From Prauserella alba (GTDB taxonomy: Bacteria > Actinomycetota > Actinomycetes > Mycobacteriales > Pseudonocardiaceae), in contig NZ_JAMTCH010000004.1 in assembly GCF_024171735.1 (NCBI RefSeq), positions 868,001 through 932,000 on the forward strand: 64,000 nt of DNA, written 5' to 3'. A program made the translations under genes and the position numbers. The notes under the pieces were generated by a model. It was not told the DNA's origin. It ran no database searches and was given only the letters and a program-made list of their open reading frames with translations. Below, in pieces: positions 24,920 to 43,629 of the stretch; within the stretch, counting starts at the first letter, position 1; the number at the start of each line of letters is the position of its first letter.

Positions 24920-24975
24920 GGCTGCCTCCGGTTGTCGGTTCTGGACACGGGGACGTTTGCCGCGTGACTGCCGCT

Positions 24976-25977
24976 TCAGAGTTCGAAGCCTGCCGGGAAC
25001 GGGTCGGAGGGGTCGAGCATGTACTGGGCGGTTCCGGTGACCCACGCACGTCCGGTGATCGTCGGGACCACGGCGACGCGCCCACCGATCTCGGTCTGCT
25101 CGACGAGCCTGCCCCGGAAGGTCGTGCCGATGAACGATTCGTTGACGAACTCGGTGTCGAGGGCGAGCTCGCCGCGGGCGTGCAGCTGCGCCATCCGGGC
25201 ACTGGTGCCGGTGCCGCACGGCGAGCGGTCGAACCAGCCCGGGTGGATGGCCATCGCGTGCCGCGAGTGTGCGGCCGTCGAGCCGGGCGCCTTGAGATAG
25301 ACGTGGTGACAGCCCGAGATGTCGGGACGTTCCGGGTGCACCGGCGGGGCCTGCTCGTTGACCGCCGACATGATGGCGAGACCGGCTTCGAGGAGCTGCT
25401 GTTTGGCCGACCGGTCGAACGGCAGACCCAGCTCGTCCAGGTCGACGATGGCGTAGAAGTTGCCGCCGAAAGCGATGTCGCAGCCGACCCGGCCGAAACC
25501 GGGAACGTCGACCCGCTGATCGAGGACGTGGCTGAACGAGGGCACGTTCTTGATCGTCACCGATTCGGCGTGCCCGTCGCGGACCGCGACGTCGGCGACA
25601 ACCAGGCCTGCGGGCGTGTCGAGGCGAACCCGCGTGACGGGTTCGGTCACCGCGACCATCCCGGTTTCGACCAGAACCGTGGCGGTGCCGATGGTGCCGT
25701 GACCGCACATCGGCAGCAGTCCGGAGACCTCGATGAACAGCACACCCCAGTCGGCGTCCCCGCGAGTGGGCGGCTGCAGGATGGAGCCCGACATCGACGC
25801 GTGCCCACGGGGTTCGCACATCAGGAGGGTGCGCAGATCGTCACTGTTCTCGATGAACCACTTTCTCCGCTCGGCCATCGTCGCCCCGGGAATGACCCCG
25901 ACGCCGCCGGTGACGACCCTGGTGGGCATGCCCTCGGTGTGGGAATCGACGGCGTGCAGGACACGACCGGTCCTCAT
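24976..25977 (-). CDS. 4-Hydroxyproline 2-epimerase (proline racemase family)
   Basis: A 333-residue member of the proline racemase family. Both catalytic cysteines are present: MCGHGTIG (about residue 90) and SPCGTGTSA (about residue 253). This marks a true racemase/epimerase, not the hydroxyproline dehydratase variant that replaces one Cys with Thr. It begins RVLHAVDSHTEGMPTRVV. It epimerises trans-4-hydroxy-L-proline to cis-4-hydroxy-D-proline, the entry step of the pathway whose other enzymes surround it. Confidence 0.92.
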   Translation of the reverse strand: MRTGRVLHAVDSHTEGMPTRVVTGGVGVIPGATMAERRKWFIENSDDLRTLLMCEPRGHASMSGSILQPPTRGDADWGVLFIEVSGLLPMCGHGTIGTATVLVETGMVAVTEPVTRVRLDTPAGLVVADVAVRDGHAESVTIKNVPSFSHVLDQRVDVPGFGRVGCDIAFGGNFYAIVDLDELGLPFDRSAKQQLLEAGLAIMSAVNEQAPPVHPERPDISGCHHVYLKAPGSTAAHSRHAMAIHPGWFDRSPCGTGTSARMAQLHARGELALDTEFVNESFIGTTFRGRLVEQTEIGGRVAVVPTITGRAWVTGTAQYMLDPSDPFPAGFEL

Positions 25978-26025
25978 CGACCGCTCCTCTCAGCTGCGAA
26001 CCGGGCCGAGCCGGTTCGGGGTGAA

Positions 26026-27525: not shown

Positions 27526-27657
27526 CGGTGGTGGTGCCTTTCCATGCGGTTACGCGTGGACGCGGTGGGGACGTCGAGGGCGCACCAGGGTGGCCGGTTC
27601 TCGCCGCTGGGCGCCGAACGTGGGCGGGACGGCGCGGTCCGTCCCGCCCACATCCGC

Positions 27658-28563
27658 TTACTTGTAGCCCTTGGCCAACACGTTCTTGGTATCGGCGACG
27701 ACCCGCTCAGCGACCTCAGGGGACAGCGGCGACCGCGGCGGGCGGCACGGACCGCCCTTGCGGCCGGCCACGTCCATCGACAGCTTGATCGCTTGGACGA
27801 ACTCGGTCTTGGAATCCCAGCGCAGCAGCGAGTGCACGTCCCGGTACAGCGGCAACGCCTTGGCGATGTCGGCCGCGTCGCCCGACGTGGCCAGGTTGTA
27901 CAGCTCGAGACTCGCGGCCGGCAGCGCGTTGGGGTAGCCCGCGATCCAGCCGACGGCTCCAGCCAGACCCAGCTCGAGGACGACGTCGTCGGTGCCGACC
28001 AGCAGGTCGAGATCCGGTGCGAGCTCGGCGATCTCGTAGGCACGCCGGACGTCGCCGGTGAACTCCTTGACTCCGACGATGTAACCCTCCGAGTGCAGCT
28101 CGGCCAAGAGTGCCGGAGACAGGTCGATCTTGGTGTCGAAGGGATTGTTGTAGGCCACGATCGGAATGCCGACTTCCGCGGCAGCGCGGTAGTGCTCCAC
28201 TATCGCCGCCTTGTCGGCGCGGTAGACGTTCGGGGGCAGCAGCAGGACCGAGTGCGCTCCGGACTCGGCGGCATGTTCCACCCAGCGGCGGGTTTCGAGG
28301 GCACCGTAGGCCGCGACGCCCGGCATGACGTGGAAACCGTCCGGGGCGGCCTCGATCGCGGTGGCCACCACGCGAGCCCGTTCCTCGGCGGTCAGCGTCT
28401 GGTACTCGCCCAGTGAACCGTTCGGCGTGATGCCGTGCATGCCGTTCGCGGCGAGCCACCGGACGTGCTCGGCGAAGCCGTCGTAGTCGACCGACAGGTC
28501 ATCGTTGAACTGCAGGGCCGAGGCGACGTGGATGCCGTGCCAGGGCTTGAGCTGCTCGGTCAT
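27658..28563 (-). CDS. Pyrroline-4-hydroxy-2-carboxylate deaminase (DapA family)
   Basis: A 301-residue TIM-barrel aldolase-superfamily protein. The Schiff-base Lys lies in GYIVGVKEFTGD, the conserved Tyr in VAYNNPF, and the family loop GSLGEYQTLT replaces the usual GTTGE. DapA members in hydroxyproline clusters deaminate and dehydrate the cyclic imine to alpha-ketoglutaric semialdehyde, which the next gene oxidises. It is the first gene of the operon, with an operator-like site 44 bp upstream. A dihydrodipicolinate synthase role is unlikely in this context. Confidence 0.88.
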   Translation of the reverse strand: MTEQLKPWHGIHVASALQFNDDLSVDYDGFAEHVRWLAANGMHGITPNGSLGEYQTLTAEERARVVATAIEAAPDGFHVMPGVAAYGALETRRWVEHAAESGAHSVLLLPPNVYRADKAAIVEHYRAAAEVGIPIVAYNNPFDTKIDLSPALLAELHSEGYIVGVKEFTGDVRRAYEIAELAPDLDLLVGTDDVVLELGLAGAVGWIAGYPNALPAASLELYNLATSGDAADIAKALPLYRDVHSLLRWDSKTEFVQAIKLSMDVAGRKGGPCRPPRSPLSPEVAERVVADTKNVLAKGYK

Positions 28564-30385: not shown

Positions 30386-30695
30386 GAATCGTATCGCGAC
30401 CGGAGACCCGCGTCCGATGCGCAGCGGACCGGGTCTCCCGAGAACCGGGCTGCCGGCACCTGGGTACCTACATCCGGCTATCTGCTTCCGGGATCCTGCA
30501 TCCGGCGCCCCGGCCACTCACCCCTGAACCGACGGCCCCGGAGAAGGACCGACCTCGGTCGCCACGCGGTACCCGCACCACCTGGCGACCGAGGTCGATC
30601 GCCGCACTTCCTGCGACGAGGCAACGGGGCGGTACCGAATGGACACATCGGGAGCCGATCACGGTACATTTCCCGACCAGATCGGGAGGTGCTCC
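30386..30695. other. Intergenic region with two hairpins
   Basis: GGAGACCCG (30402-30410) pairs with CGGGTCTCC (30430-30438), a probable terminator for the AGCS gene. CGACCTCGGTCGCCA (30550-30564) pairs perfectly with 30583-30597 across an 18-base loop, either a second terminator or a regulatory hairpin before the DASS gene. No gene is seen. Confidence 0.6.
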
Positions 30696-32207
30696 ATGTC
30701 ACAGACCAACAGTGAGTCGGGAACCGCGGTCGGCGAGGCGGATGCCGGCGGTGCCAATACGCGACGGTGGATCGGCTTGGGGCTCGCCCCCGTGCTCGCG
30801 GCCCTGTTGTACGTCGTGCTGCCGAACAGTCTGTCGGCGGACGGCAAGGCGGCCGCCGCGATCGCCCTGGTGATGGCCACCTGGTGGGTCACCGAGGCGA
30901 TCCCCCTTGCGGCGACCGCTCTGTTGCCCCTGGTGCTGTTCCCGCTGTTCGGCGTCGCCGAGATCGACGACGTCACGGCGCCCTACGCGAGCGACATCAT
31001 CTTCCTGTTCATGGGCGGGTTCATCATCGGCCTGGCAATGCAGCGCTGGGACCTGCACAAACGGTTCGCGTTGCGCACGGTGCTGCTGGTGGGCACGAGC
31101 CCCGTGCGGCTCATCGCCGGGTTCATGATCGCGACCGCGTTCCTGAGCATGTGGGTCAGCAACACCGCGACCGCGGTGATGATGCTACCCGTGGGCGTGT
31201 CCGTGCTCGCGCTGGTGCTGCAATTGGGTGACGGCAAGGGAGATCCGAACTTCGCCACGGCACTGATGCTCGGCATCGCCTACGCCGCGTCGATCGGATC
31301 GCTCAGCACGATCATCGGGACGCCTCCGAACGCCGTGCTGGTCGGCTATCTCAGCGAGCAGGGCATCTCGATCGGGTTCGGCCAGTGGATGCTGTTCGGC
31401 CTGCCGATCGCCGTCGTGTTCCTGTTCCTCGCCTGGCTGATCCTGGCCAAGGTGGTGTTCCGGCCGAAGCTCACCGAACTGCCGGGCGGCCGGGACCTGA
31501 TCCGTGAGCAGCTCCACGAACTCGGCCCGATGTCACGCGGCGAGAAGAACGCACTCGGCGTGTTCGTCGGCGCAGCTGCGGCCTGGATCATCCTGCCGTT
31601 GCTGGCCGACGAGGAGATCATGGGCGGAGCCGCGCTCACCTGGCTGGAGTACGCCGATGACAGCGTGATCGCGATGATGGCGTCGGTCCTGCTGTTCATC
31701 CTGCCCGTGCGGCGCGGCATGCGGACCATGAACTGGGACACGGCCAAACAGCTGCCGTGGGGAATCCTGCTGCTGTTCGGCGGCGGTCTCGCACTGTCCA
31801 AACAGTTCGAGGAGACCGGATTCGCGACCTGGCTCGGTGACCAGGTCGCCAATCTCGACGTACTGCCGACGATCCTGTTCGTCGCCGCCGCGGTCGTGAT
31901 CGTGCTGTTCATGACGGAGCTGACGAGCAATACCGCCATGGCCAGCATCTTCGTTCCCATTCTCGGCGCGGTCGCAGCCGGACTGGGCATGGACATCATG
32001 CTGCTCGTGGTGCCGGCGGCGCTGGCCGCCACGTGCGCCTTCATGCTGCCGGTCGCCACTCCGCCGAACGCGATCGTGTTCGGTTCCGGTCACGTCACGA
32101 TCGGGCAGATGATCAAGGGCGGTGTCTGGCTGAACATCATCGGGATCGTGCTCGTGACACTGGGCGTCTACACGCTGGGCGGCTGGATCCTGGGCATCGG
32201 GTTGTAG
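30696..32207 (+). CDS. DASS-family (SLC13) sodium:carboxylate symporter
   Basis: A 503-residue transporter with about 11-12 helices. The two SNT-type sodium/substrate motifs are visible: MWVSNTATAVMMLP and FMTELTSNTAMASIF, with GTPPNA and ATPPNAIVFGSG near them, and WWVTEAIPLAATALLP near the N-terminus. Relatives carry succinate, malate, alpha-ketoglutarate or sulfate. GGGAGGTG lies before ATG 30696. It is monocistronic between two hairpins; a dicarboxylate such as alpha-ketoglutarate would suit the neighbours, but this is inference. Confidence 0.9.
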   Translation: MSQTNSESGTAVGEADAGGANTRRWIGLGLAPVLAALLYVVLPNSLSADGKAAAAIALVMATWWVTEAIPLAATALLPLVLFPLFGVAEIDDVTAPYASDIIFLFMGGFIIGLAMQRWDLHKRFALRTVLLVGTSPVRLIAGFMIATAFLSMWVSNTATAVMMLPVGVSVLALVLQLGDGKGDPNFATALMLGIAYAASIGSLSTIIGTPPNAVLVGYLSEQGISIGFGQWMLFGLPIAVVFLFLAWLILAKVVFRPKLTELPGGRDLIREQLHELGPMSRGEKNALGVFVGAAAAWIILPLLADEEIMGGAALTWLEYADDSVIAMMASVLLFILPVRRGMRTMNWDTAKQLPWGILLLFGGGLALSKQFEETGFATWLGDQVANLDVLPTILFVAAAVVIVLFMTELTSNTAMASIFVPILGAVAAGLGMDIMLLVVPAALAATCAFMLPVATPPNAIVFGSGHVTIGQMIKGGVWLNIIGIVLVTLGVYTLGGWILGIGL

Positions 32208-32249: not shown

Positions 32250-32290
32250 ACCCGGGAGGTCCGCTCCCGCAGGCGGCGGACCTCCCGGGT
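32250..32290. terminator. Bidirectional terminator between DASS and the siderophore cluster
   Basis: ACCCGGGAGGTCCGC (32250-32264) pairs perfectly with 32276-32290 around an 11-base loop. It closes the convergent DASS gene and the eight-gene siderophore operon. Confidence 0.85.
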
Positions 32291-32327
32291 GTTCGAACGG
32301 ATCGTGTTCGAACGTATCCCAGCGCCC

Positions 32328-33584
32328 CTACCGTCCTCCACGGAAGTAGACGTGCTCCGGATGGGGATGCGACAGGAAGTCGTGGTGGGAGATGTCCCAG
32401 CCGTAGGCCCCGGCGTGCTGGAACACCAGCACGTCCCCCGCACGCACCCGAGGCAGCGGGACGTCCCGTGCGAGGACGTCCTTCGGCGTGCACAGTTCAC
32501 CGACGACCGTGACCGGAGCGTCACGCACCTCGGGCCTCGGCGCGCCGGAGCGCCACTCGTCCACGCCGAACACCGTGAACGGATGGTTGTGCTGCCACGA
32601 CGCGGGCAGCCGGAAATGGTGCGTGCCGCCCCGCACGATCGCGTAGTGCGTGCCGTGATTCGTCTTCACGTCCAGCACCTCCACCGCGTAGTAGCCGCAC
32701 GCCGCCGTCAGGTACCGCCCGCATTCGAAGTCGACCTCGGTCCAGTGCCGCGGCAACCGTTCCGCGAAACCCTTCAACTCGCGGGCGAAACCCTCCCATT
32801 CGAACTGTGCCCCGAGGTCGGCGTAGTTGACGCCGATGCCGCCACCGACGTTCAGCACTTCGCACCGGATGCCGAACGCCGACTCCCACTCGAGCACCTT
32901 GCCGCGATACAGCTCCAGCATCTCCAGATGAGCGGCCGCGGACAGATTGTTCGACAGCGAGTGCAGATGGAACCCGACCGGCCGGATTCCCGGAAGCTGC
33001 TTCGCCGCGGCCACCGCCTCGCCGAGCACCGATTCGTCGATGCCGAACTGCGTCGGGCGGCCCGCCATCGCGAGGGTCGCCGAGGGGAACGGGCCCGTGA
33101 GGTTCACCCGCAGCAGCACGTCGACGCGAGCGGCCAGTCGCGTGGCGACCTCCGAGATCCGGTACAGCTCCAGCACGCTCTCCGCGTGCAGCCGCGTGAC
33201 CCCGTGTCCGATCGCGTCGGCGATCTCCCGTTCCGTCTTCGCGGGGCCGCCGAAGATCACGGCCGAGCCCGGACCGGCGGCACGCGCCTTCGCCACCTCA
33301 CCGCCCGAGGCCACCTCGAACCCCGCCACGTGCGGCGCCAACGCCTCCAGGATCTCCGGCGCACTGTTGGCCTTCATCGCATAGAACATCCGGAACGGTT
33401 CCGGCAACGCGTCGACGGTGGCCCGCACGTGCCGGGTGAGCGCATCGAGGTCGTAGCCGTACAGGCACACCGGGTCGTCGCCCGCGACCCGGTCGGTGAG
33501 GAGACCGGCGAGCACCTGGCTGATCCCGGGCCGGCTGGCACCGGCCTCGCCGATCCCGGTTTCGTTCGTTGCCGCCTCGGTCAT
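32328..33584 (-). CDS. sbnH: SbnH-like PLP-dependent decarboxylase (staphyloferrin B type)
   Basis: A 418-residue type III PLP decarboxylase related to LysA and ornithine decarboxylase. The PLP Lys lies in FYAMKANSAPEIL; the phosphate loop is VLNVGGGIGVNY; EFEVDFECGRYL-type and GELCTPKDVLARD blocks (with the active-site Cys from the partner subunit) follow. In staphyloferrin B biosynthesis SbnH decarboxylates the citryl-diaminopropionate intermediate to give the diaminoethane unit. Its ATG overlaps the end of the sbnG-like gene. It is the last gene of the cluster, before the terminator at 32250-32290. Confidence 0.88.
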   Translation of the reverse strand: MTEAATNETGIGEAGASRPGISQVLAGLLTDRVAGDDPVCLYGYDLDALTRHVRATVDALPEPFRMFYAMKANSAPEILEALAPHVAGFEVASGGEVAKARAAGPGSAVIFGGPAKTEREIADAIGHGVTRLHAESVLELYRISEVATRLAARVDVLLRVNLTGPFPSATLAMAGRPTQFGIDESVLGEAVAAAKQLPGIRPVGFHLHSLSNNLSAAAHLEMLELYRGKVLEWESAFGIRCEVLNVGGGIGVNYADLGAQFEWEGFARELKGFAERLPRHWTEVDFECGRYLTAACGYYAVEVLDVKTNHGTHYAIVRGGTHHFRLPASWQHNHPFTVFGVDEWRSGAPRPEVRDAPVTVVGELCTPKDVLARDVPLPRVRAGDVLVFQHAGAYGWDISHHDFLSHPHPEHVYFRGGR

Positions 33585-34351
33585 CCCCGCCTCCTGGCCT
33601 CGGCGAGGTGGGCGCGCAGCGCACGCGCCGCGATCCCACGTTCCTCGCCGAGCACGAACGTGCGCACACCCGCGGCCAGCCACTCCTCGTGGTCGTCGCG
33701 CTCGCGTGGAAGGGCACAGAACGGCATCCCGCGCTCGGCGCACGCCTCGTGGACCTCGCGGACGGCGTCGCGCACCCTCTCGTGCCGGGTCTGCCACGGC
33801 ACACCGTAGGACTGGGACAGATCGGCGGCACCCTCCAGCACGAGGTCGATGCCACCACCGTCGAGAACGGACGCGATGTCGTCGACACCTTCGGCGTCCT
33901 CGATCATCGCGACGACCATGGTCTCGGCGTTGGCCCTGCGGAGGTACTCGGCGAGATCGATGCTGCCGAATCCCGGCACGCGGCCACCGTTCAGGCTGCG
34001 CATGCCCTCTGGCGCGTACTTGGCTGCCCGGACAGCTGCGTCCACATCGGACCTCCGGCGGACGTGGGCCAGCACGACGCCCATGGCACCGGCGTCGAGC
34101 ACGCGGAGGATGCCCGCCGTGTCGCCTTCGGCGACCCGCACGAGCGGGGTGAGACCCACCGCTTCGGCGGCGCGGATCATGTTCTCGACCTGCTGCGGAT
34201 CGACCAGCGTGTGCTCGGTGTCGATGATGACGAAGTCGTAACCGGCGCAGCCGATCATCTCCACCATGGCGGGGGCCGGGGTGGCGCAGAACAGCCCATA
34301 AGCCTCTTCGCCCGCGCGGATCTTCTGCTTGAGCGCATTCGTCGTCAGCAT
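33581..34351 (-). CDS. sbnG: SbnG-like HpcH/HpaI-family citrate synthase
   Basis: A 256-residue TIM-barrel class II aldolase of the HpcH/HpaI family (FVIIDTEHTLVDPQQ, MGVVLAHVRR, MVVAMIEDAEGVDDI, GIDLVLEGAADLSQSYG). In staphyloferrin B loci SbnG is a metal-dependent citrate synthase of this fold that supplies citrate for the siderophore independently of the TCA enzyme. Position between the sbnF- and sbnH-like genes, with 4-bp overlaps on both sides, supports that role over generic aldolase activity. Confidence 0.85.
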   Translation of the reverse strand: MLTTNALKQKIRAGEEAYGLFCATPAPAMVEMIGCAGYDFVIIDTEHTLVDPQQVENMIRAAEAVGLTPLVRVAEGDTAGILRVLDAGAMGVVLAHVRRRSDVDAAVRAAKYAPEGMRSLNGGRVPGFGSIDLAEYLRRANAETMVVAMIEDAEGVDDIASVLDGGGIDLVLEGAADLSQSYGVPWQTRHERVRDAVREVHEACAERGMPFCALPRERDDHEEWLAAGVRTFVLGEERGIAARALRAHLAEARRRG

Positions 34352-36102
34352 CAGCCTTCCTCGGCCAGGGGGTTCGGCACGGTGTGCAACCGCAGCTCGG
34401 TGTCGGGAAGCAGCCTGCGGCTCGTCAACTTCTCGACGTCGATGCAGGGTTTGGTCACGTCGAAGGTCGCGAAGCGCTCCGCCAGCTCGGGGAAACGCTG
34501 CCGGTAGGCTCCGATGCGCTCCCGCACGATCGCCCAGAACTCCCGCTCGTCGAACGCGTAGGCGTCGCCGAGGAAGATGCCGAGCTCGCCGATGTTGATG
34601 AAGAAGAACGCGTCGAGCACGAAGTCCGCGACCAGGCCGAGGTCGTCGGTCTCGACGAACGAGTTGCGGTTGCCGTGGTGCTCGGGGGTCGCTCGCAGCT
34701 CCGGGCACCGCCGGGGTTCGGCCAGTTCTGCGCGGGAGAACCGCACGCCGTCGTGGAAGTCCTTCAGTGCCACCCGGGTGGGCACCCCACCGGCGTGCAC
34801 CAGCACCATGTTCTGCGCATGTGATTCCACCGCGATCCCGTGCCGGCACAGCAGGTGGATCACCGGCAGGACGCTGACGTCCACGAGCTGCCGGAGCCAC
34901 TCGGCCAGGCCGAGCCGCCTGACCCACCGGTCGATCAACGGCGTGCCGTCCGCTTCGCAGGCGGTCAGCCCGTTGAACGGCACGGCCTGCTCGCCCGCCT
35001 CGAGCTGATCGTGCAGGTTCTCCCGCCAGATGCACGACAGTGTGCCCTCGGTGTCGCCGGAGACAATAGCGGTGTCGCCGGAGGCGGTGTCGGTGCTGAC
35101 GGCCGTCCCCATCACCTCCCCGAGCAGAATGAGCCGGCACTCCTCCCGCAGAAACGGATCGCCGTCAACCACTTCGCGCAGCCATCCGGAGATCCGCGGT
35201 GCGTTGGCCACGGTGTGCGGCGCGAGTTCCCGGCGCGTCGAGGTGTTGACGATGGACAGTGCGAGCTTGAGGTAAGGACGGCCGTCGCACGACAGTGTGC
35301 GGATCGACTGCTGTGGCAGGAACTGCTCAGGATCCTCGCCGAGCACCACGATGTCGCCGCACGCGAGCTGCTCGGCGAAAGCGCCCGAGACCACTTCGCG
35401 CCACTGCCACGGGTGCACCGGAAGATAGGTGTACTCCGCAGGGTCGGCGCGCCGCACGAACTCGTCGTAGGTCTCGCCGAGCTGATCACGCAGGTACGCC
35501 GACTCGGCCACGTCGGGCACGCTCGACACCTCGGCGATGCTCCGCCGCGCCGCCAGCCAGAGCGGGCGCACTCCTGGCGCGAACTCCGGCCCGAACGCCA
35601 CGTTGTCCTCGCTGTCGAAACCCATACGGGACTTGTAGGTCGGGTGATACCGGTGGCCGTCGGTGACGGCGCACTCGAGCCGGTCGTAGTCGGACTCGGC
35701 GAGCACGTCGCCTCGCTCGGCACGGGCCGCCTGCGCCAGCGCGTCGTTGAACTCGGTGCGCGCGAGCTCGCGGGCGAACCGTTCCAGGCAATCGGGGTCC
35801 GCCTTGATGACGTCACGCGTCTCGTGCAGGAATCGCAGTGCGGACTCGGCTTCCTCGGTGGCACCGGCGATGCGCAGCACGGGGTCGCGCCCGAGGCCCA
35901 CCCTGGCGAAGCCGTGCCGGCGGAACGCGGTGAACTCGTAGGACACCTCCTTTCCCGCCACCCGGTAGCGGCACGGCCCGATCTCCTCGAGATCGATGGC
36001 CTGCTCGTAGATCAGGGATTCCAGTAGTTGGCGCAACACCCTGCGCCGGACGGTGCCGAAGCCCGGTCCGGTCAGCGCGCGCTCGACGAACTCCACGGTC
36101 AC
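34351..36102 (-). CDS. sbnF: SbnF-like NRPS-independent siderophore synthetase (IucA/IucC)
   Basis: A 583-residue IucA/IucC synthetase. Visible family blocks are DGHRYHPTYKSRMGF (N-terminal nucleotide site), YLPVHPWQW, TSTRRELAPHTVANAPRIS in pieces and HLLCRHGIAVESHAQNMVLV with LKDFHDG (C-terminal FhuF-like acceptor domain). It adenylates a citrate carboxylate and joins it to an amine. GTG 36102 overlaps the upstream synthetase stop (GTGA). By order in the cluster it corresponds to SbnF. Confidence 0.9.
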   Translation of the reverse strand: MTVEFVERALTGPGFGTVRRRVLRQLLESLIYEQAIDLEEIGPCRYRVAGKEVSYEFTAFRRHGFARVGLGRDPVLRIAGATEEAESALRFLHETRDVIKADPDCLERFARELARTEFNDALAQAARAERGDVLAESDYDRLECAVTDGHRYHPTYKSRMGFDSEDNVAFGPEFAPGVRPLWLAARRSIAEVSSVPDVAESAYLRDQLGETYDEFVRRADPAEYTYLPVHPWQWREVVSGAFAEQLACGDIVVLGEDPEQFLPQQSIRTLSCDGRPYLKLALSIVNTSTRRELAPHTVANAPRISGWLREVVDGDPFLREECRLILLGEVMGTAVSTDTASGDTAIVSGDTEGTLSCIWRENLHDQLEAGEQAVPFNGLTACEADGTPLIDRWVRRLGLAEWLRQLVDVSVLPVIHLLCRHGIAVESHAQNMVLVHAGGVPTRVALKDFHDGVRFSRAELAEPRRCPELRATPEHHGNRNSFVETDDLGLVADFVLDAFFFINIGELGIFLGDAYAFDEREFWAIVRERIGAYRQRFPELAERFATFDVTKPCIDVEKLTSRRLLPDTELRLHTVPNPLAEEG

Positions 36103-37805
36103 GTCCTCACCTCGTGCAACGGGTTTCCCACCTCGACGTAGAGCGGCCGTTCCCCGCGTTCGAGGAACCGGCTCACCAGATTCGCCTTCGCCGGCAGTGT
36201 CGGCGAGGTCAGCAGATCGGCCGCGTAACGGCCCGGACAGTCATCGCGCAGGAAGCCGGCCAGCTGCGCCCAGAGCTCCTCCTCCCCCACACCTGTGTGC
36301 GTGCCCAGCACGTGGACGAGATGTCCGAAGTGGTTGGTCACCAGGTGGTAGCGCAGCCGGAGCCAGGCCTCGTCGTCGCTGTAGCGCAGCGGCGAGCCCG
36401 GCGCCACGTCGGCCCGGTCCGCGCTCGCGCTGGTGCCCTCCATGTCGCGCACCCAGAAGCGAGTCGGCCAGCCGTGATCGGTGTGCACCAGCGAGTTCTG
36501 CACGTGCGCCTCGAAGCTCACCCCGTCGGCGGTGAACGCGTGCAGCAGCGGTCGCAACGAGATCGACGCGTACTGGCGGAGCCACGCGGCCGGGCCGGCG
36601 CCCGATTCCCGCACCAGAGCGGCCAACGCGGGCTCCTCCCCGCCGCGTCCCGGCTCCAGCAGCCCGGCCACCACCCGGGGTGCCCACTCCGTGCCGGGGA
36701 ACGGGTTCTCGCGGAACAACACGGCCGTCTCCGCCGCGAGGTCACCCGCGACGTCCGGATCCAGCATGCGATACCCGGTCTCGACGAGCACGCCGAGTTC
36801 CGCCGGCCACCGGTGCCGGAGTCCCGCGATCAGCCGCCCGGCATCGGCCGCCCTGCGGACGTGCTCGACGGGGTTGTTCCGCACGAAGTTCGTGATCCGC
36901 ACATGCAGCGGCAGCTTCCAGGCGACCGCCGAGGCCGGATCGCACACGGTCCGCACCGACGACGTCGGGTACACCGTCGGCCCGAGCGGGCCCAACGCCG
37001 CGACGGCACCACGGTCGAGCAGCGGTTGCATCTCGGGCTGTTTGGCGAGGAAGTCGGCCTGCCACGGGTGCACCGGCAGCAGTGTCCTGTCCGGTGGTCC
37101 GTCCACACCGGACGGCAGCCATCGGGCCGGCACGACGTGATCCGAGCGCACGAGCGCGGGATCGGCCGCGAAGTAGTGCAGCGCGAACTCGCCGCCCAGC
37201 TCGGGTGCGTAGCGGCGCAGGTCCTGGTCGTCGAAGCCTTCCGTGCTTTTCGGAGTCGGGTGGAACGGATGCCCGCGCAGCAGCGACTGCTCCGCACGCC
37301 GAGTGGTTTCGCGGGCACGGAGTCCTGCGAACTCGGAGTCACCGACCTCGACGCCTCCGGCGCCGGCATCTCCGGCATTCGGAGCAGCGGCGTTCGAAGC
37401 ACCGGCGTCGGCATCACCGGTCGCGGGTTCTCGGGTGGCACCGGCACCCGCACCGGCCGGTTCCTCGCGGGCGAGGAACAGCGCGATGTGCCCGGTGCTG
37501 TTGGCGATCTGCCGCGCCAGCTCATCCCGGTTCTCCGCGCCGCCGTACCGGGCCACCAGCTCGTCGAGCAGGATGTCGACGAGGTGATCGTGGCCGAGCA
37601 CGCCGGAACCACCGTCGAGGCGTATCGCCTGGGTGGGCACGTGGTGGCCGAACGGCGAGACGTGCGCGAGCTCGATCGTGAGCGTGTCGTCGATCGACGA
37701 CAGCGGTACGCGCACCATCGGCCCGCGCACCTCGTGCCCGATCTCGCGGAGGAAGGCGTTGACCAGTCGCTGCCGGGTGGCCGCCTGCGCGCAGGCATCA
37801 GACAT
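36099..37805 (-). CDS. sbnE: SbnE-like NRPS-independent siderophore synthetase (IucA/IucC)
   Basis: A 568-residue synthetase with RGHPFHPTPKSTEGF, LLPVHPWQADFL, SSVRTVCDP, KLPLHVRITNFVRN and FEAHVQNSLVH. It is the second of three paralogues; by position it equals SbnE, which attaches the first diaminopropionate to citrate. GAGGAG precedes ATG 37805. An Ala/Gly/Asp-rich, low-complexity stretch (about residues 115-155) is inserted before the ATP-binding block and is absent from the two sister proteins. The 3' end overlaps the next synthetase by 4 bp. Confidence 0.9.
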   Translation of the reverse strand: MSDACAQAATRQRLVNAFLREIGHEVRGPMVRVPLSSIDDTLTIELAHVSPFGHHVPTQAIRLDGGSGVLGHDHLVDILLDELVARYGGAENRDELARQIANSTGHIALFLAREEPAGAGAGATREPATGDADAGASNAAAPNAGDAGAGGVEVGDSEFAGLRARETTRRAEQSLLRGHPFHPTPKSTEGFDDQDLRRYAPELGGEFALHYFAADPALVRSDHVVPARWLPSGVDGPPDRTLLPVHPWQADFLAKQPEMQPLLDRGAVAALGPLGPTVYPTSSVRTVCDPASAVAWKLPLHVRITNFVRNNPVEHVRRAADAGRLIAGLRHRWPAELGVLVETGYRMLDPDVAGDLAAETAVLFRENPFPGTEWAPRVVAGLLEPGRGGEEPALAALVRESGAGPAAWLRQYASISLRPLLHAFTADGVSFEAHVQNSLVHTDHGWPTRFWVRDMEGTSASADRADVAPGSPLRYSDDEAWLRLRYHLVTNHFGHLVHVLGTHTGVGEEELWAQLAGFLRDDCPGRYAADLLTSPTLPAKANLVSRFLERGERPLYVEVGNPLHEVRT

Positions 37806-39081
37806 GTGCACTCCTCGGTTCGGGGCGGGCGGTGGTCGTCGGATCGTGGCCGTCGCGCTGCACGGCACTGCGCACCGCCAGCAGGGCGGCGATGCCCAGC
37901 ACGAGGCCGATGACGCCGAAGGCGCCCACCGGCGGAAGCGTGACCGCGATGGCCGCCCCGAACAACGGTCCGACGACCTGACCGAGGTCGAGCACCCCGG
38001 TGGAGAAGCCGAACGCCGTGCCGGAGAGCCGCTGCCGCACCCGCCCACTCGCCACGTGCAGCACCGACTGCAGGAATGCGGCGAAGCAGAACCCCTGCAC
38101 CAGGCGCAACGGGATCAACAGCTCCACAGAGGTCACCGCGGCCTGCAGGGCGGTCGCGACGGCGCAGCACGCAGCGGCGATCGCGAACCCGCGCTGGGCG
38201 GGGGCGCGGTCGTTGTAGCGGCCCCACCACGGGCCTCCCGCCCACGAGGCAGCCCAGGTCGTCGCCTGCAGCATGCCGACCCACACCGCCGCGTCGGCGA
38301 TGGAGCCGGTGATGCGGTGTACCTGCGGCGCGAAAACCACGACGAGCGCATAGATCGCGGCTTGTCCCGCCAGCCCCGCGAGCAGCACATTGCGGGTGTC
38401 GGCGCGGCTCACCAGGATTCCCGCGGCCTCCCGCAACGGGGCGGCGCGCAGCGGGGCGCCCTCCGAGGCTGTCGCCGTGCGTCCGGCCCCGGGCTCCCGC
38501 TCGGTGTCGGGTTCGGGTTCGGGTTCGGTGAGCAGCCACCCGGCGGCCACACTCGAGCACGCGAGCAGTGCCGCGACGGTCACGAAGATCGGCCCGAATC
38601 CCCACGTACCGGCCAGCACACCACCCGCGAGCGGCCCCAGCAGAGCACCGGCCGCGGTCGCGCCGAACAGGCCGCCGAGGGCGCGGCCCCGCCGGTGCCC
38701 GGTGGCCAGCGTGCCGGCGAAGGCGGCGGTCGCACTCACCACGCCGCCGCACGCGCCCTGCAGCAGGCGGAACGCGACGAAGGCAGCGGGCGTGCTCGCC
38801 GTCGCCATGAGTACCAGCGAGATCGCGAGCCCCGCGTGCGCACGCACCACCATGGCCTTGCGCCCGTAGCGGTCTCCCACCGCGCCCCACAGCGGACCGG
38901 TGAGCATCTGCGTCACCGCGGGGGCCGCCAGCGCGATCCCGGTCCACAGTGCGATGTCCCCCGGCGGCGTGCCGAGACTGGCCAGGTAGAACGGCAGCAG
39001 CGGAACGACGACCGTCAGTCCCGCCGTCGCCGCGAACTGGCCGAGCCAGAGCACCGCGAACATCCGTTTCGGCTGCGTCAT
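37798..39081 (-). CDS. sbnD: SbnD-like MFS siderophore exporter
   Basis: A 427-residue major facilitator with 12 predicted helices. The loop 2-3 motif is GAVGDRYGRKAMV and a second-half relative GGPWWGRYNDRAP is present. A short acidic EPEPEP-rich loop joins the two halves. It overlaps the sbnE-like gene by 8 bp and lies 10 bp after the sbnC-like gene. Cluster position matches SbnD, which secretes staphyloferrin B. Confidence 0.88.
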   Translation of the reverse strand: MTQPKRMFAVLWLGQFAATAGLTVVVPLLPFYLASLGTPPGDIALWTGIALAAPAVTQMLTGPLWGAVGDRYGRKAMVVRAHAGLAISLVLMATASTPAAFVAFRLLQGACGGVVSATAAFAGTLATGHRRGRALGGLFGATAAGALLGPLAGGVLAGTWGFGPIFVTVAALLACSSVAAGWLLTEPEPEPDTEREPGAGRTATASEGAPLRAAPLREAAGILVSRADTRNVLLAGLAGQAAIYALVVVFAPQVHRITGSIADAAVWVGMLQATTWAASWAGGPWWGRYNDRAPAQRGFAIAAACCAVATALQAAVTSVELLIPLRLVQGFCFAAFLQSVLHVASGRVRQRLSGTAFGFSTGVLDLGQVVGPLFGAAIAVTLPPVGAFGVIGLVLGIAALLAVRSAVQRDGHDPTTTARPEPRSAHV

Positions 39082-39091
39082 CACCGCACCG

Positions 39092-40789
39092 TCATTCCCG
39101 CACCCCGGCCAGCGGGTTCGGCACCGTTCCGGTGCCGGCCGGCATGGAGACACCGCTCGACGCCCCTCGCTCCAGCAGTGGGCCGAGTACGGTGCGGCTC
39201 GGCCAGGTGGGGGCATGCAGCAGGCAGTCGGCAAGCGTGTCACCGAACCGGTCCGGCAACTCCATCCGGTCGAGGCACGCGACGATCTCCCGCCGCAGTT
39301 GCGTCCACAGTGCACGCTCGTCGAGCGAGAAGTGGCGGCACAACGCGTCGGCGATGCCGTAGAGGTTCACCTGGAGTCCGAGCGTCTGGAAGTAGCCGAT
39401 CAGCTGCTCGGCGGTGTCGAGCCGCAGCGACTGCCGCGCGCCCGGTTTGATGGCGTAGGCCGGTTCGGCCAGTCCGGCCGCGGCCATCCGTTCCGGCACG
39501 TACCGCAGCGTGTCGTGGTCCCGCAGGACGAATCCGGGTACCTCCCCGCCGTCGAAGACGGTCACCACGTTCTGCCCGTGCAGCTCGGGAAGCACGCCGT
39601 GGCGCAGGAAACCCAGTCCGAGCTCGCAGAACCCGCGCGCAAGCCGGGCGAAGAACCGCACCGGATCACCATCCGGCACGAGGACCGGTGCCAGCGTGCG
39701 CCACTCGTGCGCGGCGAGGGCCGCCATCGGCACGGCGAGGGCCTCCCCCAGCTCCGGGTACGTCCGTACCTGTGCGGCGAGCTGCCCCGGCCGGTCGGCG
39801 AACTCGTCGCCGTCGGACCAGCCGCACCAGATGCCCTCGTCACACAGCCGTACGCGCGCCCGGAGGACCGGATCGCGGTCGACGGCGGCGCGCATGGTGC
39901 GCTGGGCACTGTCGCCGTTGGCGAGGTAGCGGGGTGGCAACAGCCGCGCCGCGCCGAGCGTGGCCACGCCCAGCGGAAGCTTGAGGTGACGAGGCCCCGG
40001 CGGCGACGTCGTCAGGGTGCGCAGGGACGCCGTCGGGTGGAAGCGCCCGAGGTCGCGCATCACGGGCACGATCGCGCCGGTGGCGAGTTCGTCGGCGAAC
40101 TCGCGGCCGAGCACGTTCTCGTACTGCCAGGGGTGGACCGGCAGGATCGTGTACCTCGTGGTGTCCACCCCGGCGAGCGCGGCGGTCTCCTGCAGCCGTG
40201 GCAACTCGTCGCCCTGCAGAACCAGCGCGGCGAGGTCCGTCGACCGTGGGTCACCGCCGGTGCGGACGAACCGGGTGTCCACCGCGACCCAGTCCAGGCC
40301 GAGCGCGGCCTGCCTCGCCGTGCCGTACCGCGCGAGCTCGGCCGCCTGCCACCCCGCCGCTGCGCGCGCCGTGGGATGGAACGGGCGGTTTCTCGTCGCG
40401 GCCATGCGTTCCCCCTCCAACAGGTCGACGGTCTCCCCGTGACACCGCGCCGCGAGTACCGTCGCCGCGTGCTCCACCGCGGTCGCGACGTCCCCGGAAA
40501 CGCCGCCGACCTGGGCCGCGTGCGGTGCGACCAGTCGCACCAGCTCGTCCGGGCTCACGGGCCCGCCGTTGTGGCGGGCGGGCCCGCGGTCGAGGCGATA
40601 CCGCTGCAGACCGCCGCCGTCGCGGACGGCGACGGTCACCTCGCCGTCCGCGACCGGGACGGCCAGGGTTCCGTCGGCACGCGCACCGGCCTCGCCGAAA
40701 CCCGCCACGTTCTCCTGGATGAGGGCGTCCACGAGGTCACGCAGCACCAGTTCGGCCGCCCCGCCATCGACCTCCGAGAGCATCGCCAT
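39092..40789 (-). CDS. sbnC: SbnC-like NRPS-independent siderophore synthetase (IucA/IucC)
   Basis: A 565-residue IucA/IucC protein with NRPFHPTARAAAGW, ILPVHPWQYENVL, PTASLRTLTT, HLKLPLGVATLGAARLLP in pieces, HGVLPELHGQNVVTVF and VLRDHDTLRY. In staphyloferrin B assembly SbnC joins the intermediate to alpha-ketoglutarate (type B specificity). It follows sbnB by 6 bp. ATG 40789 is chosen over an adjoining GTG 40792; neither has a good ribosome site, so translation is probably coupled. Confidence 0.88.
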   Translation of the reverse strand: MAMLSEVDGGAAELVLRDLVDALIQENVAGFGEAGARADGTLAVPVADGEVTVAVRDGGGLQRYRLDRGPARHNGGPVSPDELVRLVAPHAAQVGGVSGDVATAVEHAATVLAARCHGETVDLLEGERMAATRNRPFHPTARAAAGWQAAELARYGTARQAALGLDWVAVDTRFVRTGGDPRSTDLAALVLQGDELPRLQETAALAGVDTTRYTILPVHPWQYENVLGREFADELATGAIVPVMRDLGRFHPTASLRTLTTSPPGPRHLKLPLGVATLGAARLLPPRYLANGDSAQRTMRAAVDRDPVLRARVRLCDEGIWCGWSDGDEFADRPGQLAAQVRTYPELGEALAVPMAALAAHEWRTLAPVLVPDGDPVRFFARLARGFCELGLGFLRHGVLPELHGQNVVTVFDGGEVPGFVLRDHDTLRYVPERMAAAGLAEPAYAIKPGARQSLRLDTAEQLIGYFQTLGLQVNLYGIADALCRHFSLDERALWTQLRREIVACLDRMELPDRFGDTLADCLLHAPTWPSRTVLGPLLERGASSGVSMPAGTGTVPNPLAGVRE

Positions 40790-40795
40790 CACCGA

Positions 40796-41827
40796 TCAGT
40801 GCAGGTCGAGCCACGTGCCGGTGCCCGACTCGGTGGCCCTCCGGTAGACCTCGCCGGCACAGGCGATGTCCTCGACAGCCATTCCCATGGGGTTCAGCAC
40901 GATGATCTCGTCGTCGTTGTCCCTGCCGGGGCGATCACCCGTGAGGATCTCGCCGAGTTCGGCGTGCAGCTGCTCGCGGGAGAACGAGCCCTCCAGCACC
41001 AGCCGATTGATGATCTTCTTCTCGCGGTTGCTCTGCTCCCAGTCGTCCACGACGACCTTGTCCGCGCCCAGGAACACGTCCTTGTGGACGTCCATGATGG
41101 ACACATTGCACAGCAGCGCTCCCCGTTTGAGCCAGGAAAACGTGATGTAGGGCTGGTCGGTGACCGTGCACGGCACGACGAGATCGCCCTGGCCGACCGC
41201 GTCCTCGGCGGTGTCGGCCACGACCGCCTTCACGTTCGGGTGGTCCCGGGTGATCCGGTCGGCCAGCCCGCAGGCCGCGTCCGCGTTGACGTCGTAGAGG
41301 TGCACGGTCGTGATGTGGTCGAACTGCTGCAGCAGCGCCGTGACCTGGGTGCTGCCGATGAGCCCGCAGCCGACCAGTGCGACGTCGGTGAATCCGCTCA
41401 CCGCGAGGTGCCGCGCGGCCAGGCAGGTGACGCCCGCGGTGCGCCAGGCACTGATCAGGCTGCCTTCCATGACGGCGACCGGGTATTTCGTCGCCGGGTC
41501 GTTGAGCACGATCAGTGCGCTGGCACGCTCTCGGCCTGCGCGCGTGGGGTTGTCGTGCTTGCTGCCGATCCATTTGATCCCGGACAGGCCGGGATCACCG
41601 ACGTGTGCGGGCATCGCGATGATGCGGTCCGCGATGTGCCCGTCGGGTCCATCGGTGCGCAGATACGGCTTGAGCGGCTGCACGGTGTCGCCGTTCGCAT
41701 GAGCGACGAGCCCTTCGTGCAACGCGCCGACGTACAGGTCGGAGTGGTCGCCACCGACGGCGGCGACATCGGATCGGGACAGGTACAGCATCCGGACGGC
41801 GTCGTCTGCCACCGGTTCCTCCTTCAC
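40796..41827 (-). CDS. sbnB: SbnB-like N-(1-amino-1-carboxyl-2-ethyl)-glutamate dehydrogenase
   Basis: A 343-residue ornithine cyclodeaminase/mu-crystallin family protein. NAD binding is shown by VALVGCGLIGSTQV (about residues 145-158), with family blocks GIKWIGSKHDN and NPTRAGRERASALIVLND in pieces. SbnB oxidatively cleaves the SbnA product to L-2,3-diaminopropionate and alpha-ketoglutarate, both building blocks of staphyloferrin B. It overlaps the sbnA-like gene by 4 bp, as expected for a two-enzyme diaminopropionate module. Confidence 0.92.
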   Translation of the reverse strand: MKEEPVADDAVRMLYLSRSDVAAVGGDHSDLYVGALHEGLVAHANGDTVQPLKPYLRTDGPDGHIADRIIAMPAHVGDPGLSGIKWIGSKHDNPTRAGRERASALIVLNDPATKYPVAVMEGSLISAWRTAGVTCLAARHLAVSGFTDVALVGCGLIGSTQVTALLQQFDHITTVHLYDVNADAACGLADRITRDHPNVKAVVADTAEDAVGQGDLVVPCTVTDQPYITFSWLKRGALLCNVSIMDVHKDVFLGADKVVVDDWEQSNREKKIINRLVLEGSFSREQLHAELGEILTGDRPGRDNDDEIIVLNPMGMAVEDIACAGEVYRRATESGTGTWLDLH

Positions 41828-42831
41828 GCTGGGTGCTCCGTACGGCGCCGGCGGGCGCCGGTGAGCCAGTTGTCGTCGTAGACGAGATCGAGGTACCGGT
41901 CACCGCGGTCGGGGAACACCGCGACGATCCGGCTGGGATGGTCGAGCCGTGGCAGCGTCCGCTGGATCGCGGCGACCACCGCGCCCGTGGAGCCGCCCGC
42001 GAAAACCCCTTCCGTGGCAAGGAGTTGCCTGCATCCGGTCGCCGCGGTGACGTCGTCGACGTAGACCACCTCGTCGATCTCCTCCGGCCTGCACAGCTCG
42101 GGCACGCGGCTGGACCCGATTCCCGGGATGTCCCGCGGGCCGGGAGCGCCGCCGAAGATCACGGAGCCGACCGAGTCGACCGCGATCACCCGCATGTCGG
42201 GGAACTCCTCGCGGAGCCTGCGCGAGCATCCGAGGATGCTGCCGGTCGTGCTGACCGCGGCGAAGAGGTAGTCCGGCGGGCGGACCAGCTGCTCGGCCAG
42301 TTCCGCGCCCGTGCCGTGATAGTGCGCCTGCCAGTTCCGGTCGTTGGCGTACTGGTTGATCCACACGGCGTCGGGGTCCGCGGTGAGCAGTTCGTTCACC
42401 CTGCGGATGCGGGAGTGCAGATAACCTCCCGCATCGTCGACGTCGTCGACCATCTCCACATCGGTGCCGAGGCTGCGCAGCAACGCCAGGTTGGCCGTCG
42501 TCGTCTTGGGGTCGAGCACGCACGTGAACCGCAGGCCCCGCACCCGGGCGGCCATCGCCAGCGCGATGCCGAAGTTGCCCGAGCTGCTCTCGACCAGTCT
42601 GCAGCCCGGGGTGATCGATCCGTCGCGCAGACCGGAGTCGACGATGTACCGGGCCGAGCGGTCCTTCATGCTCCCGCCCGGATTCATCAACTCCAACTTC
42701 GCGAGGACGTCGACGTCCGGCTGTGAGAACAGCCGGTTCAGTGCGACGACCGGGGTGTTGCCGACGCAGTCGAAAACGGACTCGGCAATCGACTCGTCGG
42801 GCTCGGCAACAGTGTCGGCGGCAGTAGCCAC
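41824..42831 (-). CDS. sbnA: SbnA-like N-(2-amino-2-carboxyethyl)-L-glutamate synthase
   Basis: A 335-residue fold-type II PLP enzyme of the cysteine synthase group. The PLP Lys lies in NPGGSMKDRSA and the substrate loop is ESSSGNFG; VSTTGSILGCSRRL is the PLP-phosphate loop. Paired with SbnB it condenses O-phospho-L-serine with glutamate for diaminopropionate synthesis. It opens the eight-gene operon. An IdeR-type iron box at 42884-42902 lies 53 bp before its ATG. Confidence 0.92.
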   Translation of the reverse strand: MATAADTVAEPDESIAESVFDCVGNTPVVALNRLFSQPDVDVLAKLELMNPGGSMKDRSARYIVDSGLRDGSITPGCRLVESSSGNFGIALAMAARVRGLRFTCVLDPKTTTANLALLRSLGTDVEMVDDVDDAGGYLHSRIRRVNELLTADPDAVWINQYANDRNWQAHYHGTGAELAEQLVRPPDYLFAAVSTTGSILGCSRRLREEFPDMRVIAVDSVGSVIFGGAPGPRDIPGIGSSRVPELCRPEEIDEVVYVDDVTAATGCRQLLATEGVFAGGSTGAVVAAIQRTLPRLDHPSRIVAVFPDRGDRYLDLVYDDNWLTGARRRRTEHPA

Positions 42832-42883
42832 GTTTCTCCCTTGCTAGAGCGGCCGGAACGGGCGGTGTCGACGCCCTGGCACG

Positions 42884-42902
42884 TTAGCAAAGGCTAGCCT
42901 TA
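42884..42902. promoter_or_regulatory. IdeR/DtxR iron box controlling the siderophore operon
   Basis: TTAGCAAAGGCTAGCCTTA agrees with the IdeR consensus TTAGGTTAGGCTAACCTAA at most positions, including the central AGGCTA and CCT. It sits upstream of the sbnA-like gene, so the operon should be repressed when iron is plentiful. Confidence 0.8.
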
Positions 42903-43101
42903 CTTAAATAGCCAAGCCGGGTGAGTAGCCTCACCGTGCGAGTGGTCTTGACATCACGGAGCGCGAGGACGGGACTCCCGGCCGGCAGGCAGGAAGTCCT
43001 GGTACGGCCTGTGGCGCCGGTGATGACCAGCCGTACTCGATCGAAGAGGGACGAGCGGCCGACGTCACGGAATCACTCGCCGGCCCACGCTCGCCGCCGA
43101 G

Positions 43102-43629
43102 TCAGTCCCGGATCGGCTCCCCCTCCGGTGTGAGGACCCACCAGACGTCTCCGACGCCTTGCCCGCTCAGGTCGCCGGGCGCCTGGTCGCCTGCGTAGTA
43201 GTACAGCGGCCATCCGTTGAGGGTGAGCTGGGACCGGCCGTCGACGCCGGTGATGGTGCCGACCTCGCCGCTGACACCGTCGACGTCGGGCGTCTCACCG
43301 CCCGGGACCGAGGGCCAGTTCTGCGCACACTGCCCCTCGCAGGTCGACGTTCCCGAACCGCGGTCGTCGCTGTCGAACTGATAGAGAACCATGCCGTCGT
43401 CGTCGACGACGATCGTGCCGAGCCGGGTGTCGGCGGTTCGCAGCCCCGGCGCTTCGCCGGAGGCTCCACCGCCGGAATCTCCGTCGCCGGTGGCCGGGGG
43501 TGCTCCGTAGCCTCCGTTGCCGCTGTCACCGCCGTCCGATGAGGATCCCCCGTCGCCCGCACCGCATGCGGTCAACGTGAGCAGGAGGAGTGGCACCGCC
43601 ACGGCCTTGAGGGTGTGTCCGGTTTTCAT
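43102..43629 (-). CDS. Lipoprotein of the COG4315 type (Yx(F/W/Y)xxD repeats)
   Basis: A 175-residue protein with a lipobox (LTLTACGAG, Cys22), then a Gly/Ser/Asp-rich linker to about residue 60, then a domain with the family motifs VLYQFDSD and LYYYAGD plus CEGQCAQNWP and the terminal DVWWVLTPEG. Such lipoproteins are widespread in actinobacteria, commonly beside ECF sigma/anti-sigma genes; their function is not firmly known. AGGAAGG precedes ATG 43629. A candidate SigL promoter (TGAACC, 16 bp, CGTGTT) lies at 43686-43713, linking it to the sigma factor gene upstream. Confidence 0.85.
   Translation of the reverse strand: MKTGHTLKAVAVPLLLLTLTACGAGDGGSSSDGGDSGNGGYGAPPATGDGDSGGGASGEAPGLRTADTRLGTIVVDDDGMVLYQFDSDDRGSGTSTCEGQCAQNWPSVPGGETPDVDGVSGEVGTITGVDGRSQLTLNGWPLYYYAGDQAPGDLSGQGVGDVWWVLTPEGEPIRD

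Follow-up and report, generated by a model that had tools for sequence, protein, structure and literature searches.

The stretch of DNA analysed here, referred to below as the window, comprises 64,000 nucleotides (G000:C2:868001-932000) of a 5.6 Mb Prauserella assembly, has a GC content of 0.689, and carries on its minus strand, at 32328-42831, eight open reading frames (ORFs) in the order sbnA-B-C-D-E-F-G-H of the staphylococcal sbn operon, with all frames open. It is highly likely that these genes form an operon for the biosynthesis and export of staphyloferrin B, placed under IdeR-type iron control, which derives from a single entry of the pathway from a Bacillota-like source and which has later replaced an older cluster within Prauserella. 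The identity and order of the genes, the iron box, the phylogeny, the synteny and the reduced second copy are direct observations. An earlier reading made from the letters alone (the sequence-only reading) had reported the eight genes in this order on the minus strand, and this is confirmed, since each gene matches its staphylococcal counterpart. The features of the operon are as follows, where NIS denotes NRPS-independent siderophore, MFS major facilitator superfamily and PLP pyridoxal phosphate.

41824-42831, minus strand: sbnA, PLP enzyme (TIGR03945, 426.9 bits, cut-off 349.95; SbnA structure 5d84 in the PDB, 390.8 bits).
40796-41827, minus strand: sbnB, dehydrogenase of the ornithine cyclodeaminase family (TIGR03944, 373.6 bits, cut-off 326.9; PDB 4m54, 456 bits).
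39092-40789, minus strand: sbnC, NIS synthetase (best NCBIfam profile SbnC, 343.8 bits; PDB 7cbb, 246 bits).
37798-39081, minus strand: sbnD, MFS exporter (MFS_1; 35-41% identity to its positional counterparts in three staphylococcal-type operons).
36099-37805, minus strand: sbnE, NIS synthetase (IucA_IucC and FhuF; 37-42% identity to staphylococcal-type SbnE; tree).
34351-36102, minus strand: sbnF, NIS synthetase (SbnF profile 552 bits, FslA 106 bits; tree).
33581-34351, minus strand: sbnG, siderophore citrate synthase of the HpcH/HpaI fold (by orthology; PDB 4tv5, 247.6 bits).
32328-33584, minus strand: sbnH, PLP decarboxylase (by orthology; PDB 6knh, 420 bits, next other protein 181 bits; 50-54% identity to staphylococcal-type SbnH).
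42884-42902: IdeR/DmdR-like iron box, 50-60 bp before the start of sbnA, agreeing with 14 of the 19 positions of TTAGGTTAGSCTAACCTAA.

The ORF starts were chosen from the junctions and from family alignments (an alternative start for sbnC is the GTG at 40792). With the chosen starts, five of the seven junctions overlap (by 4, 8, 4, 1 and 4 bp) and two are gapped (6 and 10 bp), so that the earlier statement that most junctions overlap by 4-8 bp and that none is wider than 10 bp is nearly exact. SbnA and SbnB, the pair for the synthesis of 2,3-diaminopropionate (Dap), both exceed the curated NCBIfam cut-offs, and SbnC and SbnF fall short of theirs (700 and 900 bits). Most of the other names come from NCBIfam, Pfam and the PDB; those of sbnD and sbnE were decided by direct comparison with three staphylococcal-type operons of Bacillota, two of which score above the 700-bit cut-off for SbnC while the third (G766) reaches 575 bits. 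All eight proteins match one-to-one and in the same A-H order in these three operons, with identities over the matched parts of 53-57% for SbnA, 59-63% for SbnB, 31-36% for SbnC, 35-41% for SbnD, 37-42% for SbnE, 41-44% for SbnF, 43-51% for SbnG and 50-54% for SbnH.

At the level of residues, the tyrosine of NQYAN and the serine of VSTTG in SbnA, which are changed in 5d86 and 5d87 and which we take to govern O-phosphoserine specificity, are the same in the alignment as in the wild-type structure 5d84. SbnB aligns with 4m54 over query residues 12-343, and E151 of SbnG, which is altered in 4tv6, does not vary among seven SbnG-type proteins. The assignment of SbnG as a citrate synthase and SbnH as a decarboxylase is made by orthology only. 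Between species, the ratios of nonsynonymous to synonymous divergence (dN/dS) of the operon genes are 0.07-0.30; the dN/dS ratios, like those set beside the synonymous divergences (dS) below, were computed by the Nei-Gojobori method, which is rough at a third-position GC content of about 0.89, and the YN00 ratios are lower (0.03-0.16).

The sequence-only reading had named a grouping of the synthetases with desferrioxamine or aerobactin enzymes as an outcome that would speak against it. By their scores the three synthetases do not group in this way, and the trees, whose rows included no DesD, IucA or IucC, place SbnC, SbnE and SbnF of the window beside Bacillota sbn proteins. SbnC reaches at most 46.5 bits with DesD chains and 52 bits with IucC, against the 246 bits obtained with 7cbb, for which the runner-up in the PDB scores 64 bits. 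SbnF scores about 176-185 bits with DesD and IucC, but 459 bits with AsbB and 552 bits with its own profile. The case is weakest for SbnE, for which the highest-scoring solved structure is IucA (102.5 bits), but it matches the SbnE proteins in the same place in the three staphylococcal-type operons with 274-328 bits.

The IdeR-type box that had been noticed ahead of the operon is found at the position listed above, and a second, overlapping match starts at 42889. In 20 plain shuffles of the window the mean number of hits as good as 14 of 19 was 0.05; chance is excluded as an explanation of the observation. Of 17 actinobacterial clusters, 16 have a box scoring 13-16 between -250 and +30 bp of the assumed sbnA start, among them the three Prauserella clusters with all eight genes and four Prauserella clusters of another type. 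For 15 of these 16, the score of the box was never reached in as many as 400 random windows from the same locus; in the remaining one (L036) the box overlaps the assumed sbnA start and 2.6% of random windows reach its score. The sole exception among the 17 is a Pseudonocardia plasmid cluster, in which no box was found from -250 to +30 bp of the sbnA start. PMC7174319 gives DmdR1 sites that have this form. The operon is thus inferred, from the box, to be under iron control of the IdeR type.

The deep history of the operon was examined using trees whose rows are translated tblastn pieces. In the combined tree of SbnC, SbnE, SbnF and SbnH (30 rows, 17 of them actinobacterial), rooted on achromobactin-type clusters (the type seen in Pseudomonas and Thalassospira), all the actinobacterial rows fall into a single clade (100/100) which adjoins Marinithermofilum, and the rows of Lihuaxuella and Laceyella, of Brevibacillus and of the staphylococcal type diverge before this clade. 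Forcing the eight Bacillota rows together makes the tree 44.6 log units worse (approximately unbiased (AU) test, p=0.0079). Because the actinobacterial clade is nested in Bacillota, the data favour, given the root used, a single entry into Actinomycetota from a Bacillota-like source. Marinithermofilum again stands beside the actinobacterial clade in the SbnE tree (94/93), in which Billgrantia, Paenibacillus and staphylococcal-type rows cluster together. The nearest rows to the window version outside Prauserella are those of Saccharopolyspora flava and S. spinosa. Of the two explanations that the sequence-only reading had offered for the conserved order, transfer of the whole operon therefore finds support at two depths, from Bacillota to Actinomycetota and, as described below, between Prauserella species, and an old actinobacterial lineage of the pathway is supported as well.

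When the best three or four candidates were scored in each genome, 50 of the 297 genomes examined from the family, representing 15 of 46 genera, had SbnC of this type, with one match each; in the class it was found in 4 of 394 genomes, including the window genome and G003. A scan of named genomes with SbnG was evaluated for the best 80 of 509 confirmed loci, none of which is from Staphylococcus, so that its counts are not frequencies; the A-H order is collinear in 10 of these 80, namely in two Prauserella, the two Saccharopolyspora named above, Glycomyces, Nocardiopsis, Marinithermofilum, Lihuaxuella, Laceyella and Brevibacillus gelatini. SbnG of the window is 92% identical to that of P. isguenensis and 87% identical to that of P. 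salsuginis. The Pseudonocardia plasmid pBCI1-2 carries a substrate-binding protein (SBP) gene, sbnA and sbnC-H, and ends with a gene that distantly resembles sbnB. Viral contigs scanned with SbnG and SbnB contained no relatives of either.

Several other loci touch on this distribution. On a plasmid of an ant-associated Pseudonocardia (L026, 4458-6418), genes for a metal-dependent regulator and an SBP lie ahead of sbnA, and no iron box was found before sbnA. The SbnG matches of Cupriavidus necator pHG1 and Rhodococcus pRB29 were set aside as belonging to another pathway, there being no sbnB match and no adjacent sbnA; their gene set consists of an ATP-grasp gene, two NIS synthetase genes, an MFS gene, SbnH and SbnG. 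These two loci (L028 and L025), together with loci of Streptomyces (L050, L055, L059) and Arthrobacter (L052, L056), carry SbnG, SbnH and C- or E-like synthetases, with no SbnF-type match, and such clusters probably make another citrate siderophore. Two SbnC matches (G020:C1:6202511-6204073 and G856:C2:236619-238205) contain one in-frame TGA each, which may reflect an assembly error, an alignment artefact or a broken gene.

Within Prauserella, seven genomes were compared (the window genome and G001-G006), and they divide between two versions of the cluster at two different sites. Three (the window genome, G003 and G006) carry the A-H version at a site between SLC13-type permease and lipoprotein genes, and the other four (G001, G002, G004 and G005; loci L029, L030, L032 and L033) carry an A-C-E-F-H version elsewhere. 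In these four, sbnB, sbnD and sbnG are absent from the stretch read (of the three, only sbnB was also sought genome-wide), and their SbnB homologues are only 33-35% identical and lie on contigs other than that of the cluster. The A-C-E-F-H site is flanked by a MerR-type gene, a different MFS gene (a fragment in G005), a hydrolase gene and LigD. The hydrolase gene, joined in G020 by LigD, turns up again next to the A-B-C-E-F-H clusters that G015, G020 and G026 carry, and from this recurrence the LigD site can be inferred to be the older of the two. Holding the Prauserella versions as one clade costs 99.5 log units (AU p=4.95e-5), and the two versions are not sisters. The features of the A-H site are the following.

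32270-43093: inserted unit, absent between collinear flanks in G005.
30639-32207, plus strand: SLC13-type permease, flank outside the operon, with 87-95% identity in the six other Prauserella.
43102-43629, minus strand: lipoprotein, flank outside the operon, followed by anti-sigma and sigma factor genes in collinear DNA.

The blastn homology with L141 ends at 32269 and resumes at 43094, and at the collinear site of G005 the operon is missing, its place being taken by about 1.7 kb that includes a LysR-like ORF; these break points define the inserted unit as the operon and its promoter. No mobile-element gene was seen in the unit, and the anti-sigma flank gene is present in three of the six other Prauserella (G003, G005 and G006). 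In rpoBC DNA, G006 is nearest to the window genome, while for the operon the nearest is G003, which is itself sister to G004, a genome that lacks the A-H version; this sisterhood is seen in rpoBC (98/98) as well as in the neighbouring SLC13 gene (100/100). Between the window genome and G003, dS is 0.15-0.27 in the operon, 0.40 in SLC13 and 0.44-0.59 at the LigD locus, whereas between the window genome and G006 it is similar throughout (0.37-0.51, 0.39 and 0.31-0.52, respectively). Given the low operon divergence between the window genome and G003 and the sisterhood of G003 and G004, the window version appears to have moved recently between Prauserella species. The upstream flank, from the lipoprotein gene to 47461, also has low dS (0.21-0.28 with G003 and 0.26-0.35 with G006), so the reach of the moved block on that side is uncertain. 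Base composition gives no sign of transfer, the operon having a GC content of 0.705 and the rest 0.685. It appears that the operon was acquired as a unit and that the resident cluster was replaced, a two-locus replacement which seems to be newly described here.

The LigD locus of the three A-H genomes retains what is left of that resident cluster, which is reduced to a single SbnE-type gene; its features in the window genome, given on L136 (G000:C2:1158000-1171000), are these.

L136 5119-6642: lone gene for an SbnE-type NIS synthetase, which brings the genome's IucA/IucC genes to four.
L136 5071: iron box before the lone SbnE gene.
L136 6755-8152: MFS gene.

This MFS gene is kept in the window genome and in G006 and is absent in G003. 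In the SbnE tree the lone copy of G003 pairs with SbnE of G004 (99/90) and the window copy with that of G006 (100/98), and in the pairs compared the MerR and hydrolase genes beside the G003 copy likewise lie closest to those of G004; taken together, these pairings are read most simply as two independent decays of the older cluster. The lone gene is intact in all three genomes, and its dN/dS of 0.18-0.27, against 0.21-0.30 for the SbnE gene of the operon, suggests purifying selection. Its box in the window genome scores 14 of 19, which equals the random maximum of the locus (the box itself not being excluded from the random set), and no box was found before the lone gene in G003 (best 11 of 19) or G006 (best 10 of 19). 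It is a tentative and rather doubtful idea that, after the arrival of the operon, SbnE was kept from the decaying cluster to serve a separate, one-synthetase second route to a citrate siderophore or to act as an isoenzyme, and that the four genomes without sbnB, sbnD and sbnG in the cluster may build a variant from the SbnA product; the absence of iron boxes in G003 and G006 lowers the odds of a pathway built on the lone gene.

The product of the operon, and the chemistry by which it would be made, can be proposed by analogy with what is known of Staphylococcus aureus. SbnA and SbnB would together provide L-Dap and 2-oxoglutarate; the first step is presumably the conversion by SbnA of O-phosphoserine and glutamate to N-(1-amino-1-carboxyl-2-ethyl)-glutamic acid (ACEGA), with SbnB acting second. 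SbnG would supply citrate, SbnE, which we take to be the synthetase for citrate and L-Dap, would couple the two, SbnH would decarboxylate the citrate-bound Dap, SbnF would attach a second Dap, and SbnC, presumably a type B NIS synthetase, would attach 2-oxoglutarate to give staphyloferrin B for export by SbnD. The three staphylococcal-type operons all carry sbnI, which we take to encode a serine kinase and heme-sensing regulator; SbnI queries from Lihuaxuella and Brevibacillus, used for the position after sbnH, match 6 of 100 loci, all of Bacillota, and no actinobacterial locus, the rest of the window genome not having been searched (L039, which ends within sbnG, is uninformative on this point). 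O-phosphoserine need not come from SbnI, because the window genome contains the phosphoserine transaminase SerC (TIGR01366, 643.5 bits, cut-off 401.65). In terms of history, the operon would have entered Actinomycetota once, from a Bacillota-like source, either without sbnI or losing it, and would have spread later among actinobacteria; in Prauserella an operon-sized unit would then have been inserted while the older sbn cluster elsewhere decayed to its SbnE gene.

Re-uptake of the ferri-siderophore would probably involve an unlinked ATP-binding cassette (ABC) system of the SirA/YfiY type on another contig. No sir-type importer genes adjoin the window operon; in the staphylococcal-type stretches such genes are divergent in L155 and on the strand of the operon in L157, and in L156 there are none within 3.7 kb. 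The candidate SBP gene (C1:119133-120128), one of eight periplasmic-binding-protein genes in the genome, faces two FecCD permease genes and an ATPase gene, with an iron box between. Its product matches the SBP beside the G015 sbn cluster with 60% identity and 387 bits (next SBP of the genome, 75 bits) and the SBP beside the L155 operon with 117 bits (next, 67 bits). Another SBP gene, which begins at 63714 and lies at the window's end, was rejected as the importer, its locus scoring at most 23 bits with SBPs adjacent to clusters; it gives no match with the L155 SBP, and its permease is nearest to the F420-0 model, below the cut-off.

Several observations weigh against the interpretation as a whole or against parts of it. 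SbnC, SbnD and SbnE are only 31-42% identical to their staphylococcal-type counterparts, and sbnI and an adjacent sirABC are missing from the window operon. Among solved structures the candidate SBP is closer to YfiY (128 bits) than to SirA (97.5 bits), and in a set of 60 genomes its relatives of at least 250 bits, found in 11 of 12 SbnC carriers (seven of the carriers being of one genus), are not confined to carriers but are present in 9 of the 48 genomes that have no SbnC. Many of the tree rows are of unlike letter composition, and both groupings submitted to the AU test were chosen after quick trees; the fork that joins the window version to Saccharopolyspora has only moderate support (80/82), and is unresolved in the combined tree. 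The divergence of the synthetases raises the question of whether a diverged NIS synthetase uses another acid or amine and the operon yields an analogue of staphyloferrin B, since it is SbnC (31-36%) and SbnE (37-42%) that depart from the staphylococcal-type proteins, as against 50-63% identity for SbnA, SbnB and SbnH. This is judged quite improbable, since the enzymes that supply Dap, citrate and 2-oxoglutarate have all been retained, with the decarboxylase and in the same order.

The two Prauserella versions might instead be old paralogues that underwent differential loss with no recent transfer, an account which accords with the presence of both groups inside one actinobacterial clade whose deep forks are weakly supported, but which would leave unexplained why G003, the sister of G004 in rpoBC and SLC13, has an operon closest to that of the window, with the dS values given above. 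Because none of the 50 family genomes with SbnC has two matches (four candidates being scored per genome), replacement by transfer is the better explanation, and old paralogy is considered unlikely. It is very improbable that the operon is silent or that its function has been taken over by another siderophore: although an Amycolatopsis aidingensis siderophore cluster with low (12%) staphylobactin similarity is reported to have given no siderophore under the conditions used, the window operon has eight open frames, the low dN/dS between species noted above and a conserved box. The interpretation of the window as a staphyloferrin B operon acquired by transfer is accordingly preferred.

Some other genes in and near the window were noted. 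About 19 kb from sbnA, at window positions 61812-64000 and continuing through L135 1-5983, lie genes for a FecCD permease (nearest to the F420-0 model), an ATPase and the SBP rejected above, followed by a methyltransferase, a DUF364 protein (heavy-metal chelation), an SbnA-like PLP enzyme (135.6 bits, below the cut-off) and an MFS protein; these may form another metallophore or amino-acid cluster. The region 21193-28563 resembles hydroxyproline catabolism, with a proline-racemase family gene (24976-25977) and a DapA-like lyase gene (27658-28563), both below the curated cut-offs, and, identified by eye only, an aldehyde dehydrogenase, a flavin adenine dinucleotide (FAD) oxidoreductase and a GntR regulator.

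Whether an actinobacterial version had been described was left open by the sequence-only reading, and the answer is that one already had been, bioinformatically, in the 2024 BGCFlow study (PMC11162802), which reports staphylobactin-like clusters in Saccharopolyspora, judges horizontal transfer unlikely there and notes that the compound itself is yet to be demonstrated. Weak antiSMASH similarities are mentioned elsewhere (12% for Amycolatopsis aidingensis and 25% for other Saccharopolyspora). In a literature search that left subscription journals mostly outside its reach, no paper joining Prauserella with staphyloferrin or staphylobactin was found, nor any report of the two-locus replacement, the lone SbnE gene or the nested actinobacterial clade. 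The accessible portions of papers on Brevibacterium and Corynebacterium describe no sbn cluster, and in those of a hibiscus/Streptomyces paper and a PBP2 paper staphyloferrin B appears as an example only and in the references only, respectively. The kind of operon is therefore already known, and the new part is the evolutionary detail and the retained synthetase.

These results suggest that a full Gram-positive siderophore operon has crossed from Bacillota to Actinomycetota, moved within a genus and displaced a resident copy, and they make siderophore turnover testable at named loci, which comprise the new operon, the collinear site that lacks it and the retained SbnE paralogue. They also indicate how actinobacteria probably take up staphyloferrin B, and the different content of the A-C-E-F-H and A-H clusters means that the two need not give the same product.

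Compared with the sbnA-I and sirABC genes of Staphylococcus, the window operon shares the A-H order, one-to-one matches and all of the precursor enzymes, but it is without sbnI or adjacent sir genes, its proteins are 31-63% identical, and its control would be IdeR-like, whereas staphylococcal sbn genes are controlled by Fur. Among the rows used, the operons that come closest from outside Actinomycetota are those of Lihuaxuella, Laceyella, Marinithermofilum and Brevibacillus gelatini; they are likewise collinear from A to H, but they retain sbnI directly after sbnH. Achromobactin-type clusters have related SbnC, SbnE, SbnF, SbnG and SbnH proteins, and differ in having the order E-H-F-G-C, no sbnA or sbnB match in the loci seen, and lower identity. 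The clusters of Saccharopolyspora are of the same kind and belong to a related genus, with those of S. flava and S. spinosa collinear from A to H; they are judged unlikely to be horizontally acquired in the study that described them, while the evidence from Prauserella indicates transfer and replacement.

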